Made by a program: the position numbers and the translations under genes
Source: Elusimicrobiota bacterium
GTDB lineage: Bacteria > Elusimicrobiota > Elusimicrobia > UBA1565 > UBA9628
Length of the DNA stretch: 64,000 nt
Reading direction: 5' to 3'
NCBI GenBank assembly: GCA_016212855.1
Contig: JACRDP010000010.1
Location: forward strand, 106,954 to 170,953
The notes under the pieces: generated by a model
Told to the model about the DNA's origin: nothing
What the model saw: the letters and a program-made list of their open reading frames with translations, nothing else
The model's database searches: none
Shown here: piece by piece, positions 32,672 to 49,453 of the stretch
Layout of the letters: each line of letters opens with the position of its first letter
Position numbering within the stretch: position 1 is the stretch's first letter

Positions 32672-33274
32672 ATGAATCCGGAAACCAACGACGGGCGTAC
32701 ATCTAAGCAGCAGGCCCTGATGAGCGAGGAGGCCGACTGCCTTTCACGCATCGCGCGCGAGCGCGACGAGGATGCGTTCTCCCGCCTCTACGACCTGCAG
32801 TCGCCGCTCTTGTTCGGCCTCGCCTGCCGGATCTTGGCGAGGAAGGACGAGGCGGAGGAGGTTCTCCAGGAGATCATGTTGAAGGTGTGGCACGAGGCCG
32901 ACCGCTACGACGCGGCGCGGGGCTCCGCGCGCGCGTGGCGGGTCATGATGACCCGCAGCCGTTGCCTGGACCGCCTGCGCCGGCGCTCCACGGCTCTTCG
33001 GCGCGAGCCGCCGGCTCCCGAGAACTTGGACCAGACGCCAGACGATTCCGTCATGGCGGTCGAGGAGATGACGCGCGCCGAGGAGCGGGCGGCGGTTCGG
33101 CAGGCGCTTAACTCTCTGCCGGAGGCCCAGCGCCGTGCGCTCGAGGCGGCGTTTTTCGAAGGGCTGACCCATGCTGAGATCGCCGCGAAGACGGGAGATC
33201 CTTTGGGCACGGTCAAGACCCGCGTGCGCCTGGGCATGATGAAGCTCGCCGAGTTGTTGAAGGCCTACACATGA
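32672..33274 (+). CDS. ECF-type RNA polymerase sigma factor
   Basis: This 200-residue sigma factor has region 2 ('DAFSRLYDLQSPLLFGLACR', 'DEAEEVLQEIMLKVWHEADR', 'GSARAWRVMMTRSRCLDRLR') and region 4 ('LPEAQRRALEAAFFEGLTHA', 'EIAAKTGDPLGTVKTRVRLG'). It looks like the SigK-type ECF group. Its stop overlaps the FecR-like gene (ATGA), the usual sigma/anti-sigma arrangement. A possible extended -10 (TG-C-TATCGT) lies about 25 bp upstream. Confidence 0.9.
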   Translation: MNPETNDGRTSKQQALMSEEADCLSRIARERDEDAFSRLYDLQSPLLFGLACRILARKDEAEEVLQEIMLKVWHEADRYDAARGSARAWRVMMTRSRCLDRLRRRSTALRREPPAPENLDQTPDDSVMAVEEMTRAEERAAVRQALNSLPEAQRRALEAAFFEGLTHAEIAAKTGDPLGTVKTRVRLGMMKLAELLKAYT

Positions 33275-34035
33275 CGGACGATAAAGACCCCTTAAACGCG
33301 AAATCTTTGGACCTGCCGCCTTCGCGCGAGCTTGACGAGGCGGCCGCGCTCCTGGCTTACGCGGCGGTCGAACGCAATCCACCTGCGGAGTTGAAGGATC
33401 GGCTGATGGCGGGACTACGACCAGTTCCCACGTGGTACCAGGGCAAGCGCTGGCTGCGTCCCGCGGCGGCCGCGGCGCTGGCATCCGTTCTTCTCTTCGT
33501 CATGTGGACTCGCACCCCGAGAAGCGGCCCGATCTTGATCGCCTCCCAGGGGGCGGTGACGGTCGACGGCCGAGCCGCCGCCGCCGGCGCCCGCGTCAGT
33601 TGGGGAAGCGTGATCGAAGTCTCCTCCGACGGCGAGGCGGTCGTCCGCGTCGACGATCGCGCGGGATTCAGCCTGAGCCGTGGGGGCCGGGCGGCGCTTT
33701 CGCGCGACGGCGCGGCCCTCTCCGTGCGTCTTTTCTCCGGTTGGCTGCTCAGCGCCGTGAAAACGGGGACCGCCTACGCCGTCGTGACCGAGCACAGCCG
33801 AGTTTCCGCTTTGGGCACGGATTTCATCGTCAAAGTGCGCGATGCGCGGGCTTATGTCTGCATCTGCCACGGACATCTCGGCCTCGGCGGGGATTTCCCC
33901 GAGCCCGAAATCGCTTCTCAGGCTCACGGCTCCTTGACGGAGCCTCTCTATAAGCCCGGATCAGAGGGCGCCATGGAAGGGCATTCCGATGACGCCATCG
34001 CGCGGTTGCGCGACCTTGTCGGCCTCCAGCATTGA
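33271..34035 (+). CDS. FecR-domain membrane protein, putative anti-sigma factor
   Basis: This 254-residue protein has a cytoplasmic N-terminus ('LAYAAVERNPPAELKDRLMA', the pattern of anti-sigma N-terminal helices), one TM helix ('AAAAALASVLLFVMWTR', about residues 69-85), and a periplasmic FecR-like domain ('GPILIASQGAVTVDGRAAAA', 'VLSSDGEAVV'-type strands, 'VVTEHSRVSALGTDFIVKVR'). The start overlaps the sigma gene. It probably holds the sigma factor inactive until an envelope signal arrives. A C-I-C-H motif in the FecR domain is unusual. Confidence 0.75.
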   Translation: MTDDKDPLNAKSLDLPPSRELDEAAALLAYAAVERNPPAELKDRLMAGLRPVPTWYQGKRWLRPAAAAALASVLLFVMWTRTPRSGPILIASQGAVTVDGRAAAAGARVSWGSVIEVSSDGEAVVRVDDRAGFSLSRGGRAALSRDGAALSVRLFSGWLLSAVKTGTAYAVVTEHSRVSALGTDFIVKVRDARAYVCICHGHLGLGGDFPEPEIASQAHGSLTEPLYKPGSEGAMEGHSDDAIARLRDLVGLQH

Positions 34036-36699: not shown

Positions 36700-36841
36700 T
36701 CTATCCTCAGGGTCTGTCGACAGATGATATACGCGCGCCGCCCCCGTTTGGATGCCTGGTATTCGCGCACCCGACCGCGGCACGCTCCGTCTAGATGAAT
36801 CCATGCCCGGCCGAGCCGCGTACTACAGACATGGAGGAATC

Positions 36842-37558
36842 ATGATCAAACATCTTGGGCGTGTCCTGACCGTCGTCGTCGCTCTGAATCTGCCCGTCTC
36901 CGCCGCAGAATCCGTTTTTCGCAGCGCACCCGGAGGCACCTCGTTGCTGGAGTTGTACAGTTCGGAGGGCTGCAGCTCCTGTCCGCCGGCCGATGCATGG
37001 GTGGGTTCCCTGCGGCGCGAGCCCGGCCTGTGGCGGGATTTCGTGCCGGTCGCGTTCCAGGTCGACTATTGGGACTACCTCGGTTGGCGCGATATCCTCG
37101 CGACTCCGGAGAACAGCGCGAGGCAGCAATCTTACGGGCGTCTGGTGACGCCGCAGCTCCTGCTCAACGGCCGCTCATTCGGAGGGATCGGCGCCGCGAT
37201 CCGTAAGCCGAAGTCGGACGCCGGGACCCTTGAAATCCGTTCTGACGGGATCGCGAGCCAGCGCGTCGTCTTCAAGCCGAGCGGCGCCGACGCAGGCGGC
37301 TTGGTGGCCCACGCCGCCTTGCTCGGCTTCGGCGTCGCGTCCACCGTCACCCGTGGAGAGAACAGCGGCTCGGTTTTGCGGCACGAGTTCGTCGTGCTCG
37401 ATCACGCCGCACGGCCGCTCGACGACGGCCGGGCCGCGTTCAGCTTGCGGCCGAATCCCGCGGTAAGAGCGGGCCGCTTGGGCGTGGCCGCGTGGGTGTC
37501 CCGCGGGGACGACCCGACGCCTCTTCAAGCTGCGGGCGGGTATCTAGGCGCGGAGTAG
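36842..37558 (+). CDS. Exported DUF1223 thioredoxin-like protein
   Basis: This 238-residue protein has a signal peptide (to about residue 21) and the DUF1223 hallmark 'SLLELYSSEGCSSCPPADAW', with a C-x2-C-P thioredoxin-like centre, then 'FQVDYWDYLGWRDILATPEN' and 'QQSYGRLVTPQLLLNGR'. GGAGGA precedes the ATG. It is 12 bp upstream of msrAB. Function of the family is not established; a periplasmic redox role fits the neighbours. Confidence 0.85.
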   Translation: MIKHLGRVLTVVVALNLPVSAAESVFRSAPGGTSLLELYSSEGCSSCPPADAWVGSLRREPGLWRDFVPVAFQVDYWDYLGWRDILATPENSARQQSYGRLVTPQLLLNGRSFGGIGAAIRKPKSDAGTLEIRSDGIASQRVVFKPSGADAGGLVAHAALLGFGVASTVTRGENSGSVLRHEFVVLDHAARPLDDGRAAFSLRPNPAVRAGRLGVAAWVSRGDDPTPLQAAGGYLGAE

Positions 37559-37570
37559 GGGGTCATTTCC

Positions 37571-38590
37571 ATGAAATCCATCATCGCCGCTCTTTGCCTA
37601 GGCGTCGCCGGCGTTCCGCTGCGCGCCGCGGACAAACCCGCGCGAAGCGCCGTCGCTACCTTCGCCGGCGGTTGCTTCTGGTGCATGGAGCCGCCCTTTG
37701 AAAAACTAGCGGGAGTGAAGACCGTCATCTCCGGCTATACCGGGGGGACGGAGAAGAACCCGACGTATAAGCAGGTGTCGGCGGGCCAAACCGGGCACGC
37801 CGAATCCGTGCAGGTGACGTATGATCCGGATAAAGTCTCCTACGAGAAGCTGCTCGACGTCTTCTGGCACAACATCGATCCGACCACGATCGACCGTGAG
37901 TTCGTGGACGAAGGTCATCAGTACCGCACCGCGATCTTCTTCCACGACTCCGAGCAGAAGAAACTGGCGCTCGCGAGCAAGGAGAGTCTGGATAAGTCGG
38001 AAGTCTTCGGCGCACCGATCGTCACGGAGATCGTCGCCGCGACCGCCTTCTATCCCGCGGAGGAGTACCACCAGGACTACTACAAGAAGTCCGCGGTAAA
38101 ATATAAATACTACCGTTATCTCTCTGGCCGGGACGCCTATCTCGGCAAGACCTGGAAAGGCAGGAAGGCCGCGGCGGCGACCGCCCGACTGACGCCGCTG
38201 CAGTATCACGTCGTCAAGGAGAACGGGACCGAGCCCCCCTTCAAGAACGCCTACTGGGACAACCACGAGGAGGGCATCTACGTCGACATCGTCTCCGGGG
38301 AGGCGCTGTTCAGTTCCAAGGATAAGTACGACTCCGGAACGGGGTGGCCGAGTTTCTCCGCGCCGCTGGTGGAAGGCAACATCGTCCTCAAGACGGACCG
38401 TTCGCTTTGGAGCGTCCGGACCGAGGTCCGCTCAAAAAGCGCGGACTCCCACCTCGGGCATGTCTTCGACGACGGCCCTGAGCCAACCCATAAGCGTTAC
38501 TGCATGAATTCGGCGGCGCTCAGGTTCATCCCGGCGGGAGAGCTTGTCGCGGCGGGCTACGGGAAATACGCCGCCCTGCTCGTCAAATAG
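37571..38590 (+). CDS. msrAB: Exported methionine sulfoxide reductase MsrA-MsrB fusion
   Basis: This 339-residue bifunctional enzyme repairs both S- and R-methionine sulfoxide. The signal peptide (to about residue 20) indicates periplasmic action. The MsrA domain has '[20 protein letters not shown]' with its catalytic Cys and '[16 protein letters not shown]'. The MsrB domain has '[20 protein letters not shown]', '[20 protein letters not shown]', its catalytic Cys in '[11 protein letters not shown]'. The MsrB zinc CxxC pairs are absent, as in zinc-free types. Reducing equivalents could come from the adjacent CcdA/DUF1223. Confidence 0.93.
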
Positions 38591-38592
38591 CA

Positions 38593-40380
38593 ATGGCACG
38601 CCCCCGAAGCCCCGAGCCTCCTCGGTCCGAACTGTCCGACCCGGGAGGCTGGTATGCCGCGCACGGCCGCAGGCTGTATCTTTACGCTTATTCGCGGGTG
38701 CGCGACGCGAACGAAGCGGACGAACTCGTCCATCAGACCTTACTGACCGCGTTCGCGGCGCGCGGACGATTTCGGGGGGAGTCGAGCGAACTCACCTGGA
38801 TGACCGGAATCCTGCGCTACAAAGTCCTGGAGCACTTCAGGCGCCGTAGTCGGGACAGATGCTTGGAGCCGATCGATATCTCCGACGCGCGAAAGGATTC
38901 GCCCGAACGCAAAGCCGAAGCCTCGGAGTTCGACTCCATCGTGCGAGAAGGGTTGGGAACTCTATCGCCTCAGATGGCGCGGGCATTCTCCCTGCGCCGC
39001 ATCGAGGGGGTGAGCCAGCAAGAAGCCGCCAAAATCTTGGGCGTTCCCGCCGGACGAGTCGCGGTCATGGTCTATCGTGCGCGAATGCGATTGATCCGTC
39101 ATCTGGGACAAGCGGCGGCGGTTGTTGCTCTTCTCAGCGCTGTAGCCGTACCGGGCGCTTTCGCGGCCCCCGTAGGCAGCATCGAGATCGAAGGGGCCAA
39201 AACGCGCCCTGAGACGGTCCGTGCCTTGCTGGACACCCGGATCGGCGCGGAGTTCGATCCTGCGGCTTGGGAAAGGGACTTGCGGCGCCTGCGCAACCTC
39301 GATTACTTTTACGACGTGATGGGCGACGCCCGTGAAGTCGACGGCAGGATGGAACTGCACCTTCATCTTCGCAACAAGTTTTCCACGCTGCCGATCTTCA
39401 AATTCAAAAGAGGCGGCGGCTCGTCTTTGATTACCGCGGGGCTTTATGAGATCAACTTCCTGGACCGCCTCCTCGAGGTCGGAGGCCAATACGAGCGGTT
39501 CAACGGCAAGCCGGGCTATGCTCTCTGGTTCCGCCATCCATACCTCTTTTCCAGACGCAACCGCTTCGGTACGGAAGTCCTCGCTCACGCCATCGATCTC
39601 CCGCTTCTAACCGACCGCGGGGAGGAGGAGGCCTTCTTCGAGAATAAGGAGACGCGCTGGAACGGACGGCTCCAGCGGGAACTGGCCGAGTCCTTGCGCG
39701 TCGGAGTCGAGTTGAGCGTGTATCAGAACGACTTCAAGCGCGACGACGGCTCGGCGGAAAAGAGGGCCCGCAACGACGGCTTCCTGCGCACGACCACCCT
39801 GCACTCCGGACGCACGGTCTCGCTGACGCCGAGTGTAACGGTAGGCCGGCTTGATCACGACCGCTATTTTATCTCGGGGCACGAGGGCTTCGCGCAGGTG
39901 GAATTGGCGCACCGCAGCTTAGGCTCCGGTTTCGCCTTCGCCAAGGGGCAAGCGGGGGTCACAGGAGGCTGGCGCCCGGGAGAGCGTTGGAACCTGGTCT
40001 ATCAGGCCAAACTCGGAAGCAAGACCGGACGCGAGTTCCAACATAAGTTCTATCTCGGCGGGCTTGATACGGCCCGAGGCTTCTTGGACCGTCAATTCCG
40101 AGGCGAGCACATGTGGTTAGTGAACCTCGAGGCGCGACCGACTCTCGTCGAGAAGCCGCTGTGGGTGCTCCAGGGCGCTCTATTCACGGACCTCGCCAAA
40201 ACCTGGGACGCCCGCAATTTCGGCGTCGACGGCTTCGGGCGGCCGATCATCAGCTACGGCATCGGCGGGCGAGTGATATTCCCGCGCGTCTATCGCGCCA
40301 TCTTGCGCCTGGACGTCGCACGGACGCAGCGGCCTGTCGGGCAGTACGGCGTCAGTCTCGGGCTGCAGCAGTTTTTTTAG
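38593..40380 (+). CDS. ECF sigma factor fused in frame to an Omp85/TamA-like outer-membrane protein
   Basis: One uninterrupted 595-codon ORF joins two unrelated proteins. Residues ~22-170 form an ECF sigma factor: region 2 'RVRDANEADELVHQTLLTAF' with 'ESSELTWMTGILRYKVLEHF', and region 4 'LSPQMARAFSLRRIEGVSQQ' with 'AAKILGVPAGRVAVMVYRAR'. Residues 165-191 read as a complete signal peptide starting at an internal ATG (39085): 'MRLIRHLGQAAAVVALLSAV' then 'AVPGAFA'. Then come one POTRA-like unit ('VGSIEIEGAKTRPETVRALL', 'RRLRNLDYFYDV') and a barrel ending 'GVSLGLQQFF' (terminal Phe). The ORF starts 2 bp after msrAB. Either internal initiation yields a normal outer-membrane protein, or a tethered precursor exists. 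A missed frameshift is possible. Confidence 0.8.
   Translation: MARPRSPEPPRSELSDPGGWYAAHGRRLYLYAYSRVRDANEADELVHQTLLTAFAARGRFRGESSELTWMTGILRYKVLEHFRRRSRDRCLEPIDISDARKDSPERKAEASEFDSIVREGLGTLSPQMARAFSLRRIEGVSQQEAAKILGVPAGRVAVMVYRARMRLIRHLGQAAAVVALLSAVAVPGAFAAPVGSIEIEGAKTRPETVRALLDTRIGAEFDPAAWERDLRRLRNLDYFYDVMGDAREVDGRMELHLHLRNKFSTLPIFKFKRGGGSSLITAGLYEINFLDRLLEVGGQYERFNGKPGYALWFRHPYLFSRRNRFGTEVLAHAIDLPLLTDRGEEEAFFENKETRWNGRLQRELAESLRVGVELSVYQNDFKRDDGSAEKRARNDGFLRTTTLHSGRTVSLTPSVTVGRLDHDRYFISGHEGFAQVELAHRSLGSGFAFAKGQAGVTGGWRPGERWNLVYQAKLGSKTGREFQHKFYLGGLDTARGFLDRQFRGEHMWLVNLEARPTLVEKPLWVLQGALFTDLAKTWDARNFGVDGFGRPIISYGIGGRVIFPRVYRAILRLDVARTQRPVGQYGVSLGLQQFF
39085..40380 (+). CDS. Possible nested product: exported Omp85/TamA-like protein
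   Basis: This is the same reading frame as the fusion ORF, starting at internal ATG 39085. The 431-residue product would have a textbook signal peptide, one POTRA-like domain and a ~16-strand barrel including 'FYLGGLDTARGFLDRQFRGE', which resembles the conserved R-G-F loop (lid-lock) motif of Omp85 proteins. No Shine-Dalgarno is visible before this ATG, so it would depend on coupling to translation of the sigma part. A single POTRA is fewer than in BamA or TamA. Confidence 0.45.
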   Translation: MRLIRHLGQAAAVVALLSAVAVPGAFAAPVGSIEIEGAKTRPETVRALLDTRIGAEFDPAAWERDLRRLRNLDYFYDVMGDAREVDGRMELHLHLRNKFSTLPIFKFKRGGGSSLITAGLYEINFLDRLLEVGGQYERFNGKPGYALWFRHPYLFSRRNRFGTEVLAHAIDLPLLTDRGEEEAFFENKETRWNGRLQRELAESLRVGVELSVYQNDFKRDDGSAEKRARNDGFLRTTTLHSGRTVSLTPSVTVGRLDHDRYFISGHEGFAQVELAHRSLGSGFAFAKGQAGVTGGWRPGERWNLVYQAKLGSKTGREFQHKFYLGGLDTARGFLDRQFRGEHMWLVNLEARPTLVEKPLWVLQGALFTDLAKTWDARNFGVDGFGRPIISYGIGGRVIFPRVYRAILRLDVARTQRPVGQYGVSLGLQQFF

Positions 40381-40392
40381 GAGAGGAAAAGA

Positions 40393-41508
40393 ATGACCGA
40401 CTCGAACGACGCATCGGCGGAAGTCCCCGCATACTGCGTCGTGTGCGCGACTCCCCTGGCCGGGCCATGGGGGCTTCTCTTCTATGCCGCCGGAATCAGG
40501 CGCAGCGCGCTCAATCCCGGGATATGCTCGCGCTGCAACCAGCACATCGAGGAGGGCGCTCTCGTCGAGCTAACCGTGCTCTTCGCCGATCTCTCCGACT
40601 TCACCGCCCTCACCAACGAGCTCGGCCCGGAAAAAGCTCACGAAGTCGCCGAGGCCTTTCTCAAATCCGCTTCCACAGTGATCGTTTCCCGCGAGGGCGC
40701 CATCGACAAATACATCGGCGACGCCGTGATGGCGCTTTTCAACGCTCCGATCGCCAATAAACGTCATGCGGAACTTGCCTTGGATGCGGCGACGACGATC
40801 ATAGACGACATGGATGTGCTCTCCAGACGCTTCCGGCGACCCCTGACCGCCCAAGCGGGCATCGCGACCGGCTGGGCGAGGATAGGCCGGCTGGCTGGAG
40901 GCGCGGTGACCGCCATCGGCGCGCCGGTCAACCTCGCGTCGCGTCTGGAAAGCCACGCCGCAGCGGGGGAGATCGTCGTGGATGAGGCCGTCATCCGGCT
41001 TTCCGGTCGGCGCTTGCCGGGAGGCCGTCGCGAGAAGCTCGCGATCAGCGGCTTTCCTGCGCCGGTTCATGCCTACAGACTCGGCGGCGACGGGCGGCCC
41101 GCGTCTGCGCCCGGCACCTCGGCCGGCAGCGGCGGAACGTCGGGCGGGGCATCGACGGCTGGGCTTCTCTTCGCTCTCTTGGGCGCCCCATGCGCCGCCG
41201 CCACACTCTTGGGGCCTATGGTCGTTCCTCTCGGGTTGAGCTCCGTGTTCGCCGCGTCGAGCGCGGTATGGCTGCTCGACGGCGGATTCGTCCGCCACGC
41301 GCTCGCCGTACTCGCAGTCGCTGGCGTCGGAGCGAACTTGTTCGCGCTCTTGCGCGCCCGGTCGCAGCGGCGGGGCTTAGCCGCCACACCGCTGGAGCGA
41401 GCGCGGGCGGCGTGGATCGTGGCGACGGCCATCCTGGTCGCCGGAGCGATCGCGGCGGAGACATGGGCGCACGCCCGGATGGCGGCGAAGATGATGATGA
41501 TGCCCTAA
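40393..41508 (+). CDS. Membrane-associated class III adenylate/guanylate cyclase
   Basis: This 371-residue protein opens with a zinc-finger-like pair (CVVC, residues 15-18; CSRC, 45-48). A class III cyclase domain follows: 'VLFADLSDFTALTNELGPEK' with the first metal Asp, 'GAIDKYIGDAVMALFNAP' with the second, and 'ASRLESHAAAGEIVVDEAVI'. A Gly/Ser linker leads to about four TM helices ('LLFALLGAPCAAATLLGPMV' onward) ending in a Met-rich tail. GAGAGG precedes the ATG. It probably makes cAMP or cGMP; C-terminal rather than N-terminal membrane anchoring and the zinc module are less common. Confidence 0.8.
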   Translation: MTDSNDASAEVPAYCVVCATPLAGPWGLLFYAAGIRRSALNPGICSRCNQHIEEGALVELTVLFADLSDFTALTNELGPEKAHEVAEAFLKSASTVIVSREGAIDKYIGDAVMALFNAPIANKRHAELALDAATTIIDDMDVLSRRFRRPLTAQAGIATGWARIGRLAGGAVTAIGAPVNLASRLESHAAAGEIVVDEAVIRLSGRRLPGGRREKLAISGFPAPVHAYRLGGDGRPASAPGTSAGSGGTSGGASTAGLLFALLGAPCAAATLLGPMVVPLGLSSVFAASSAVWLLDGGFVRHALAVLAVAGVGANLFALLRARSQRRGLAATPLERARAAWIVATAILVAGAIAAETWAHARMAAKMMMMP

Positions 41509-41525: not shown

Positions 41526-42230
41526 ATGATGAGCCTCGCGATTGTCGTTGCGGCGATATGGAACGTGCCGTCTGCTGCGGCGCAAACGCACCCGCAGGCC
41601 GTCTCGGCCGAGAATGTTTCGCAAGCGCCTGCGCCGTTCGCCGTGCCCGTCCATGCCGCCGCGGGTTGGGAAAAGCTGACCTATCGCCGGATTCCCCCGA
41701 ACGAGGTCGTGTTCTCGCCGGCCGGAATCGAGATCGGCGTGCGGGCGTCAGCCAGTCCTCTGATTTATCCGTTGCCGGCGCCGAGACGACTTTCGCGGGT
41801 GCGGGTGCGACTGAAGATCTCCGGGTCGCTGAAAAGCGCCGTCGAGAAAGGGAGGTGGGACGAAGACTCGCAGTTCCGGCTGGGTCTGGTCGTCAGCGGG
41901 AACAAGCGACTGTCGGGTTTGTCCAAGGCCGCGGCGCCGGCGTGGGTGAAGCGGTTGTTTTCATTGGCGCCGAGAGGCGGCGGGATCGACCGCATCGTGT
42001 TCCTGATGATGGGGCGCTCTCCGTCGAACATAGGAGACAAACGCCGTCATCCCTCTTCCGATCTCATCGAGGAGCGCATCGCCTGGTTGTCCGACGCCAA
42101 GGGCGTAAGGCTGGATCTCGACTCCGCCGTCGACCCGTCTCTGCTCGTTTCGGCCTTGTGGATCAGCGTCGACGGCGACGACACCGGCTCCGCATACGAA
42201 GTGCTCATCGAGTCGATCGAGCTGGATTAG
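41526..42230 (+). CDS. Exported DUF3047-like protein
   Basis: This 234-residue protein has a signal peptide (MMSLAIVVAAIWNVPSAAAQ) and a single beta-rich domain: 'WEKLTYRRIPPNEVVFSPAG', 'RRLSRVRVRLKISGSLKSAV', 'EDSQFRLGLVVSGNKRLSG', 'RIVFLMMGRSPSNIGDKRRH' and 'SALWISVDGDDTGSAYEVLI'. The pattern recalls DUF3047 exported sandwiches, without certainty. It follows the cyclase by 17 bp and ends before the mercury promoter, so it closes the msrAB-sigma::Omp85-cyclase series. Confidence 0.6.
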   Translation: MMSLAIVVAAIWNVPSAAAQTHPQAVSAENVSQAPAPFAVPVHAAAGWEKLTYRRIPPNEVVFSPAGIEIGVRASASPLIYPLPAPRRLSRVRVRLKISGSLKSAVEKGRWDEDSQFRLGLVVSGNKRLSGLSKAAAPAWVKRLFSLAPRGGGIDRIVFLMMGRSPSNIGDKRRHPSSDLIEERIAWLSDAKGVRLDLDSAVDPSLLVSALWISVDGDDTGSAYEVLIESIELD

Positions 42231-44126: not shown

Positions 44127-44164
44127 CGCAGTCGGACGGCGACGCGACGCAGGTTCCGGGGGAA

Positions 44165-44173
44165 TGATAGAAT
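44165..44173 (+). promoter_or_regulatory. Extended -10 promoter before the ECF sigma gene
   Basis: TG-A-TAGAAT ends five bases before ATG 44179, implying a leaderless or nearly leaderless transcript. The alternative ATG at 44164 overlaps the element and is less likely. Confidence 0.45.
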
Positions 44174-44178
44174 CGGGC

Positions 44179-44763
44179 ATGGCGATTACGACGACCCGAT
44201 TGAGCATGGAAGACCTGCGCGCGCGCAAACCGGAGGCGTTGACGGCGATGGTCAACGACCACCTGCCGACTCTGCTCGCGGGCGCGCTCGCCATCGGCCT
44301 TTCCCGCGCCGACGCCGAGGAGGTCGTCCAGGAGACCTTCGTCGCCTTCCTCACTGGGCTCGATCGTTTCGAAGGGCGCTCCAGCCTGCGCACCTATTTG
44401 TTCGGCATCCTCTACCATAAAGCGTCGAACCTGCGCGCCAAGGCGCGGCGGGAAGAGGGCTCGGACGACATCGAGGCGGTCGTCGGCGCGCGCTTCAACG
44501 AGGATGGCATGTGGTCCCGCCCTCCGCGCGGTCCCGAGGCCATGGCCCTCGACGCCGAGACCCGGCGCTGGGTGGAGAAGTGCTCGGAAGGGCTGCCGGA
44601 CGCCCAGAGGGCGGCCTTCTTCCTCAAAGAAGTCGAGGGAGAGACTCCGGAGGCGATCTGTAACGTTTTGGGCGTGAACCCGACGAACTTACGAGTGATG
44701 CTCCATCGCGCCCGCCTGAAGCTGAGAGAGTGCCTGGAGCTGAACTGGGAAAGAAACCGGTGA
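44179..44763 (+). CDS. ECF-type RNA polymerase sigma factor
   Basis: This 194-residue sigma factor has region 2 ('GLSRADAEEVVQETFVAFLT', 'FEGRSSLRTYLFGILYHKAS') and region 4 ('LPDAQRAAFFLKEVEGETPE', 'AICNVLGVNPTNLRVMLHRA'). The stop overlaps the next gene (TGATG). The following Cys/His protein is its likely anti-sigma factor. Confidence 0.9.
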   Translation: MAITTTRLSMEDLRARKPEALTAMVNDHLPTLLAGALAIGLSRADAEEVVQETFVAFLTGLDRFEGRSSLRTYLFGILYHKASNLRAKARREEGSDDIEAVVGARFNEDGMWSRPPRGPEAMALDAETRRWVEKCSEGLPDAQRAAFFLKEVEGETPEAICNVLGVNPTNLRVMLHRARLKLRECLELNWERNR

Positions 44764-45017
44764 TGAAGCTGATGATGGCGTTCATGCCCACCTGCCGCGA
44801 GGTCGCCAAGACCTTGTGCGGCGACGGTCTCGCGGCCGAGCCATGGCACCGGCGCCTTCTGATCCGTCTCCATCTCAGTCAATGCGATTTTTGCTCCCGC
44901 TTCGCCCGTCAGATGGACCGCATCTGCGAGGCGTTGAAGGCGGCCTGGTCCGCGCCTCAAGGCGACGACGTCGAGGCGTTCAAGCGGCGCGTCATCGATC
45001 GGCTGGGCCCGTCCTGA
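44763..45017 (+). CDS. Small zinc-binding anti-sigma factor (zf-HC2-like)
   Basis: This 84-residue protein has 'MPTCREVAKTLCGDGL', then 'LLIRLHLSQCDFCSRFARQM', the H-x3-C-x2-C motif of ZAS-type anti-sigma domains. No TM helix is present, so it is a cytoplasmic, possibly redox-sensitive, inhibitor of the upstream sigma factor. It overlaps the sigma stop by one base. Confidence 0.8.
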   Translation: MKLMMAFMPTCREVAKTLCGDGLAAEPWHRRLLIRLHLSQCDFCSRFARQMDRICEALKAAWSAPQGDDVEAFKRRVIDRLGPS

Positions 45018-48562: not shown

Positions 48563-49453
48563 ATGAACTCGCCCATCTCCGGGAAAACGGCCTTCGTCCT
48601 CGCAGGAGGGGGGAGCTTGGGCGCGGTTCAGGTGGGGATGCTGAAGGCCCTGGCGCGAGCCGGGATCGTCCCGGATTTGGTCGTCGGGGCTTCCGTCGGC
48701 GCGATCAACGGCGCCTTCTATGCGGGCGACCCGACGCCGGCGGGCGTCGAGCGCATCGAGCGCATCTGGCTCGGACTGTCTCGAAGCGACGTGTTCCCAT
48801 TCCCATTCATCCAGAGCTGCCTTGGTCTCAGCGGACGCTCGTCCCATGTTTCGGACCCCGCTCGTCTGCGCTCGATCCTGGAACCGCTTCTCCCGTGCCG
48901 CAGGCTCGAGGAGTGCGCGGTGCCGTGCGCGGTCGTGGCGACCGACCTCATGGACGGCTCCGAACGCGTCTACCGCGAGGGGCCGACGATGGACCTCCTG
49001 CTGGCCAGCGCGGCGATCCCGGCCGTTTTCCCGCCGGTGTTCCATGAGGGGCGCTACCTCGGCGACGGCGGCCTGTCCAACAACGCGCCGGTCTCGACCG
49101 CCGTCTCCCTCGGCGCGGCCAAGGTGATCGCGCTCTCGACGGGGTTCTCCTGCGCGCTCGCAGCACCTCCCCGCGGCGCAGTCGCGACGGCGCTTCACGC
49201 CCTGAATCTTCTCATCAACCGACGGCTGGTCCACGACTTGGAGGGGATGCTCGGACGCATCGAGGTCGCCGTGGTCCCGCCGCTGTGCCCGGTGGAAGTG
49301 ACGCCGTTCGACTTCTCAAGGAGCGCCGACCTCATCCGCCGGGCCGAGGCCTCGACGCGGCTTTGGCTGCGCCAAGGCGGGCTGTCCCGCCGGGGGATCC
49401 CGGAGGAGTTTTCGCCGCACGCGCACGGCTCGCCGACAGAAGCAGCTTGTTGA
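48563..49453 (+). CDS. Patatin-like phospholipase
   Basis: This 296-residue hydrolase has the oxyanion glycine-rich loop 'VLAGGGSLGAVQVGMLKALA', the nucleophile elbow 'VVGASVGAINGAFYAG' (G-x-S-x-G) and the catalytic Asp in 'GRYLGDGGLSNNAPVSTAVS'. It is probably a cytoplasmic or peripheral lipid acyl hydrolase of the RssA/YlbK type. GAGGG precedes the ATG. The last ~120 bp overlap the convergent HTH remnant, so its native C-terminus may have been altered there. Confidence 0.9.
   Translation: MNSPISGKTAFVLAGGGSLGAVQVGMLKALARAGIVPDLVVGASVGAINGAFYAGDPTPAGVERIERIWLGLSRSDVFPFPFIQSCLGLSGRSSHVSDPARLRSILEPLLPCRRLEECAVPCAVVATDLMDGSERVYREGPTMDLLLASAAIPAVFPPVFHEGRYLGDGGLSNNAPVSTAVSLGAAKVIALSTGFSCALAAPPRGAVATALHALNLLINRRLVHDLEGMLGRIEVAVVPPLCPVEVTPFDFSRSADLIRRAEASTRLWLRQGGLSRRGIPEEFSPHAHGSPTEAAC

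Follow-up and report, generated by a model that had tools for sequence, protein, structure and literature searches.

An ECF sigma factor and an Omp85 outer-membrane protein in a single reading frame of an Elusimicrobia genome

The locus and its reading frame

The window, by which we mean the whole 64,000-nt stretch of DNA analysed here, derives from the draft genome assembly of an uncultured Elusimicrobia bacterium, 2.5 Mb in size (30 contigs, 72.7% complete), and the fusion gene under study lies within a 239-kb contig. The gene belongs to an operon that starts with genes for a DUF1223 exported protein and MsrAB; a gap of 2 nt separates msrAB from the fusion gene, which is followed after 12 nt by a class III nucleotide cyclase gene and, after a further 17 nt, by a gene for a 234-aa exported protein (Table 1). 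Given that the msrAB stop codon stands only 2 nt before the ATG of the fusion gene, we placed these two genes in one operon. The ccdA gene is divergent to the operon. The cyclase adjoining the fusion gene on its 3′ side has an unusual layout, with two CxxC motifs near the N-terminus and C-terminal hydrophobic segments. Three ECF sigma genes, at 32672, 38593 and 44164, lie within about 12 kb of the window, and the first of them is overlapped downstream by a gene for a FecR-like membrane protein (32672-34035 for this locus).

Table 1 Features of the fusion gene and its operon, with positions in the window
Feature	Position	Strand	Basis
DUF1223 exported protein, operon gene 1 (probable real start about 36842)	36752..37558	+	Pfam
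Exported MsrAB (methionine sulfoxide reductase A+B)	37571..38590	+	Pfam PMSR, SelR
ECF sigma, signal peptide, POTRA and Omp85 barrel in one chain, 595 aa	38593..40380	+	ORF
Sigma-70 region 2, residues 21-87	38653..38853	+	Pfam PF04542; AF2 helices, pLDDT mostly >90
Sigma-70 region 4, residues 117-167	38941..39093	+	Pfam PF08281
Predicted signal peptide MRLIRHLGQAAAVVALLSAVAVPGAFA, residues 165-191	39085..39165	+	Sequence, hydropathy, charge; AF2 continuous helix 153-182
POTRA domain, residues 194-248	39172..39336	+	Pfam PF07244
16-strand Omp85 barrel, residues 265-593	39385..40371	+	Pfam PF01103; AF2 strands; Foldseek BamA/TamA
Class III nucleotide cyclase, SD AGGAG	40393..41508	+	Pfam Guanylate_cyc

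A preliminary description of this DNA had reported one stop-free frame in which sigma regions 2 and 4 pass into a signal peptide, a POTRA unit and an Omp85 barrel ending in Phe, and each of these points was borne out. The frame runs from its ATG to a TAG at 40380 with zero internal stops, and all four Pfam domains scored above their curated cut-offs, with E-values of 4.6e-10 for Sigma70_r2, 2.3e-11 for Sigma70_r4_2, 1.5e-7 for POTRA and 4.9e-12 for Omp85 (matched over residues 308-576). The N-terminal half, which scored 72 bits against TIGR02937 (sigma70-ECF; cut-off 42.9), carries regions 2 and 4 and none of the other sigma domains, as is characteristic of ECF sigma factors, and its putative function would be to direct RNA polymerase to promoters. 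The C-terminal half combines a POTRA domain, of which the Omp85 superfamily has at least one, with the 16-strand barrel and aromatic C-terminus of that superfamily; the protein terminates in Phe-Phe. Because both halves have close homologues that are real genes, we do not regard the frame as a chance one.

Structure prediction with AlphaFold2, using an input alignment of separate sigma relatives and separate Omp85 relatives, returned confident sigma-2 and sigma-4 folds together with the POTRA domain and the 16 barrel strands, and the best PDB fold matches of the model (Foldseek) were BamA and TamA. A helix spanning residues 153-182 runs unbroken from sigma-4 into the hydrophobic signal core, in agreement with the earlier proposal that the last sigma helix doubles as the n-region of the signal peptide. 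Confidence was low at residues 181-189, where cleavage is predicted (AFA|AP). On the basis of charge, core hydropathy and the A-x-A rule, the signal peptide was called as MRLIRHLGQAAAVVALLSAVAVPGAFA|APVG, between region 4 and POTRA, with the last helix of sigma region 4 as its n-region; the 17 residues behind residue 173 have a hydropathy of 2.18, as expected of a membrane-spanning segment. Two more specific assignments of the C-terminal half were rejected. The BamA equivalog TIGR03303 gave 49.8 bits against a cut-off of 297.15, and the chain has one POTRA rather than several; a PlpD-type patatin Omp85 or type Vd autotransporter was discarded in view of the absence of any patatin match from the fusion chain.

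Relatives of the two halves and a second fusion

The preliminary description had looked to conservation of the join in relatives for support, and this expectation failed. Across the phylum, the Omp85 of the fusion was found in 5 of 341 Elusimicrobia genomes, and in the other four it stands apart, as a gene that has a start codon and a signal peptide of its own. No relative in the genus, family, order or phylum had the sigma::Omp85 join; a search of GTDB contigs with the Omp85 alignment returned only Elusimicrobia loci, none of them fused, and a search of viral contigs returned nothing. The Omp85 of a congener, genome G016, is 79% identical and lies directly behind a patatin gene; this block is syntenic with 42.3-49.5 kb of the window, where the patatin gene (48563-49453) is separate and has no Omp85 gene behind it. 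The sigma half is about 47-53% identical to its nearest relatives, which are free proteins; all but one measure 182-196 aa, the exception being annotated with a longer N-terminus. Similarity breaks exactly at the join: sigma homologues extend to residue 172-175, and Omp85 homologues begin at the signal peptide. Since the Omp85 is separate elsewhere and the nearest sigmas are free, the join is lineage-specific, neither ancestral nor conserved. Adjacent sigma and Omp85 genes with a stop codon between them, the arrangement named beforehand as speaking against a fusion, were not seen in the relatives, whose Omp85 genes do not lie beside a sigma gene. A conserved pairing of Omp85 with DUF3047 was also considered (G230 locus against window 41526-42230), and we do not claim it, as it came down to an 11-residue match.

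The congener G016 encodes a second fusion (G016:C5:36837-38624, equivalent to L054:2838-4625), in which an ECF sigma, a signal peptide, an NHL propeller and an HMA domain share one frame. Its sigma belongs to a different ECF group from the fused sigma of the window and shares about 72% identity with a free copy 9 kb away, whereas two relatives encode its NHL and HMA cargo as a gene of its own (85% and 76% identity). Both fusions are joined at the same point, with region 4 complete through its last helix and the cargo complete from the signal core on. The two sigma-export fusions are independent of each other. Each is known from a single genome assembly, and the presence of a second fusion with a different cargo in a close relative makes the arrangement look real. 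The G016 fusion gene is followed by a gene for a putative outer-membrane channel (Phenol_MetA_deg), with a merR gene close by. The ECF group of the G016 fused sigma also has a free member in the window (44164-44763), within a block syntenic with G016:C5, and a ZAS-like anti-sigma gene (about 44736-45015) overlaps it.

These comparisons bear on whether two genes were joined artificially. The assembly is an incomplete draft and the join is known from one genome of the species, as would be expected of an assembly or binning artefact; however, the join is in frame and stop-free within a long contig and a closely spaced operon, and in G016 other partners are joined at the equivalent sigma position, a coincidence that misassembly by chance would not produce. 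We therefore consider an artefact very improbable.

Export fusions accounted for 2 of 141 distinct sigma-like proteins, in a biased sample of loci that included sigma genes with long open frames. In 3 of the 141, all from the same taxonomic order as the window, a transmembrane tail follows region 4 directly. An ECF sigma with a transmembrane helix and a short tail, and no further domain, is encoded at L022:672-1352, L027:1441-2046 and L063:1315-2256, and these proteins are candidate membrane-tethered sigmas.

Anti-sigma genes, selection and a promoter motif

A small anti-sigma-type gene overlapping the sigma gene from behind was present at all 21 stand-alone relatives (9 of the window's sigma group and 12 of the G016 fused-sigma group) and at neither of the two fusions; the corresponding Fisher value of 0.004 is merely descriptive, because the relatives are not independent samples. 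At all 21 stand-alone loci, these genes carry a Cys...H-x3-C-x2-C pattern, which is typical of soluble ZAS-type anti-sigma factors. In both fusions, the signal peptide and cargo occupy the usual place of the anti-sigma gene. Pfam and NCBIfam scans found no ZAS-like anti-sigma domain within the fusion chain, no ZAS-like ORF was found directly behind the fusion, and no ZAS motif was found in the cyclase gene that follows. The simplest history would be a single deletion that took out the tail of the sigma with its stop codon, the whole anti-sigma gene and the beginning of the gene for the exported protein.

Subsequently, we considered whether the two halves are still maintained. Pairwise dN/dS for the Omp85 half against G016 was 0.12, whereas the branch estimate for the window sigma was 0.34 (CI 0.19-0.55) and those for the fused sigma of G016 were 0.28-0.43. 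Purifying selection accordingly still acts on both halves; for the sigma the evidence is moderate, because the branches may partly pre-date the fusion and dS is high. The fused sigma branches nevertheless evolve faster (0.28-0.43 against 0.05-0.28 for free copies, all below 1), and the window sigma lacks a linker stretch conserved in its stand-alone relatives; the lost linker and the faster evolution together suggest that the fused sigma may be losing function. Both observations would suit evolutionary debris, in which a deletion fused a redundant sigma to the Omp85 gene and left the sigma as a passenger heading for loss, as would the lineage-specific distribution of the fusion and the persistence of paralogues of both fused sigmas elsewhere in the genomes. 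Conversely, debris would not lead one to expect a complete region 4 and signal core at both joins, branch ratios still below 1, sigma regions 2 and 4 that score above cut-off and fold confidently in the model, or the independent appearance of a comparable fusion in G016. We regard this explanation as unlikely.

The internal ATG at 39085 (Met165, in the last sigma helix) opens another alternative, namely a nested gene whose working product is an Omp85 started there, with the sigma fusion as a by-product; this we hold to be rather doubtful. The ATG is indeed in frame and at the right place, and initiation there would yield a textbook signal peptide with a net charge of +2. However, a Shine-Dalgarno sequence is absent at this ATG and at its G016 equivalent, although one precedes the first start in about half of the long ORFs of the window and the downstream cyclase has its AGGAG, so that the earlier suggestion of internal initiation keeps its start codon and signal peptide and loses its ribosome-binding site. 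Methionine also occupies that site in 5 of the 9 stand-alone members of the window's sigma group, and being common there it points to Met165 as inherited. Moreover, a nested gene leaves the origin of a free sigma unexplained, since the sigma has no stop behind it. On the other side, the internal Met of the G016 fusion (ARMK) is absent from the listed stand-alone relatives, which have L, N, I, V or A, and looks like a gained start specific to the fusion; because this Met is unique to the fused copy, we kept the internal start under consideration.

The preliminary description had also taken the msrAB neighbourhood as a regulatory hint, and the promoter analysis gave it meaning. The promoter-like motif TGWCAT-N17-CACTSA, which we assign to the stand-alone relatives of the window sigma, was identified upstream of four DUF692/DUF2063 operons and recurs about 8 nt before the free sigma genes of G003, G007, G009, G015 and G016. 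A scan of two whole genomes gave five sites, and the reversed pattern gave zero matches; in the genome of the window the sites include one at a DUF692 operon and one at an msrBA gene, and in G016 they include the ccdA-msrBA gap. The motif occurs at loci L207, L208, L209, L210, L012, L013, L015, L016, L114, L216 and L213, and its putative targets comprise DUF692/DUF2063 operons, sigma genes, the msrBA gene and ccdA. It probably marks an oxidative-stress ECF regulon in Elusimicrobia. The motif is absent before the fusion's own operon, where the best matches (8-9 of 12 positions) were judged background, and no clear motif emerged for the second, G016-type sigma group. In Haemophilus and Neisseria, RpoE2 and SigE control msrAB and a UPF0276/DUF2063 cluster, and Haemophilus RpoE2 acts in the hypochlorite response (PMC7907618). 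Since the msr and DUF692/DUF2063 targets are common to both systems, the fused copy appears to be a relative of this envelope oxidative-stress sigma.

Proposed processing and known systems

The reading that we favour, and to which as a whole we give an even chance, is that the gene is a real, lineage-specific fusion whose product is a precursor for secretion, by which the attached sigma is tethered to the inner membrane. Beyond the reading frame, its steps (whole-frame translation, cleavage, tethering, release and sigma activity) are what we infer from the domain order and the comparisons above. A stress ECF sigma of the msr/DUF692-DUF2063 type would have lost its last residues, its stop and the overlapping soluble anti-sigma gene, and the truncated sigma would have been fused, without a change of frame, to a single-POTRA Omp85 from the core of its signal peptide onward. 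As there is no stop between the halves, a ribosome starting at 38593 would make the whole chain. The internal signal would then target the nascent chain to Sec, the strongly basic sigma-4 helix before the hydrophobic core would keep the N-terminus inside (N-in, C-out insertion), and signal peptidase I would cut at AFA|AP, allowing the Omp85 to proceed to the outer membrane. The signal-peptide helix would hold the sigma at the cytoplasmic side of the inner membrane, and this tether would replace the restraining role of the lost anti-sigma until a site-2 protease, or loss of export, released the sigma. The genome of the window has an S2P gene (G000:C9), and by analogy S2P/RseP-type proteolysis could free the fused sigma; RseP is known to remove remnant signal peptides once the mature protein has detached (PMC10470546).

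One point against the tether model is that a folded domain, about 165 residues long, would precede the export signal, a less usual arrangement than a signal at the N-terminus. The idea of a sigma-carrying precursor, already put forward in the preliminary description, nonetheless fits all the findings and is backed by the second fusion and by the loss of the anti-sigma gene in both. Overall, that description stands in part, for the join, the shared helix and the precursor, and falls short on conservation of the join and on a ribosome-binding site at 39085. Processing of the chain along these lines would couple transcription stoichiometrically to export and turn signal-peptide cleavage into a regulatory step; the arrangement may thus tie gene control to protein export. 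A broader reading, which we offer tentatively as a possibility, is that anti-sigma genes in this genus have repeatedly been replaced by a signal peptide and an exported protein, with release of the tethered sigma reporting the state of export or of the envelope. Each exported molecule, whether an Omp85 barrel or an NHL/HMA metal-binding protein, would then deposit one membrane-tethered sigma. The fusions offer a testable route for the loss and replacement of anti-sigma control.

Extensions that anchor a sigma factor in the membrane or act as sensors are already known, and those reviewed are anti-sigma, sensor, or ligand- or protein-binding domains. In the present fusions the sigma instead carries an entire exported protein, signal peptide included, and the two genes differ in both sigma and cargo. 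In the open-access literature, we found neither a sigma/Omp85 fusion, groups described only in the 2021 ECF reclassification being outside this scope, nor a sigma joined via a signal peptide to a complete exported protein.

The closest described systems differ in what follows the sigma. IutY of Pseudomonas putida (ECF243) likewise comprises an ECF sigma, a C-terminal membrane segment and a periplasmic part in one chain, but its extension is its own membrane anti-sigma, whereas that of the fusion is a cleavable-looking signal peptide with a complete outer-membrane barrel; release by regulated proteolysis, through Prc and RseP, has been demonstrated for IutY and is proposed for the fusion (PMC8999054). 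Similarly, ECF52 (SCO4117 of Streptomyces), known from Actinobacteria only, encodes a sigma, a transmembrane region and an exported domain in one ORF, but it differs from the fusion by a zinc-finger anti-sigma-like domain that precedes the membrane part and by a carbohydrate-binding module on the outside of the cell (PMC5826349). Compared with the proteolysis-activated fused sigmas in general (IutY and ECF48/52/53), the fusion has the membrane segment without a ZAS-like domain. RpoE2-HseR of Haemophilus influenzae and SigE-MseR of Neisseria resemble the fusion in that the sigma is encoded beside msrAB, and their regulon of msrAB and UPF0276(DUF692)/DUF2063 matches the motif-bearing genes of this Elusimicrobia genus; RpoE2 and SigE are, however, free proteins restrained by a small soluble anti-sigma, which the fused copy has lost (PMC7907618). 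On the Omp85 side, the single-POTRA 'BamA-like' proteins and the patatin-like PlpD share with the fusion one POTRA and a 16-strand barrel, but none of the ten described Omp85 architectures has a cytoplasmic sigma in front, and the patatin that PlpD carries in the same chain is here a separate protein without a signal peptide (PMC4104836, PMC11116518).
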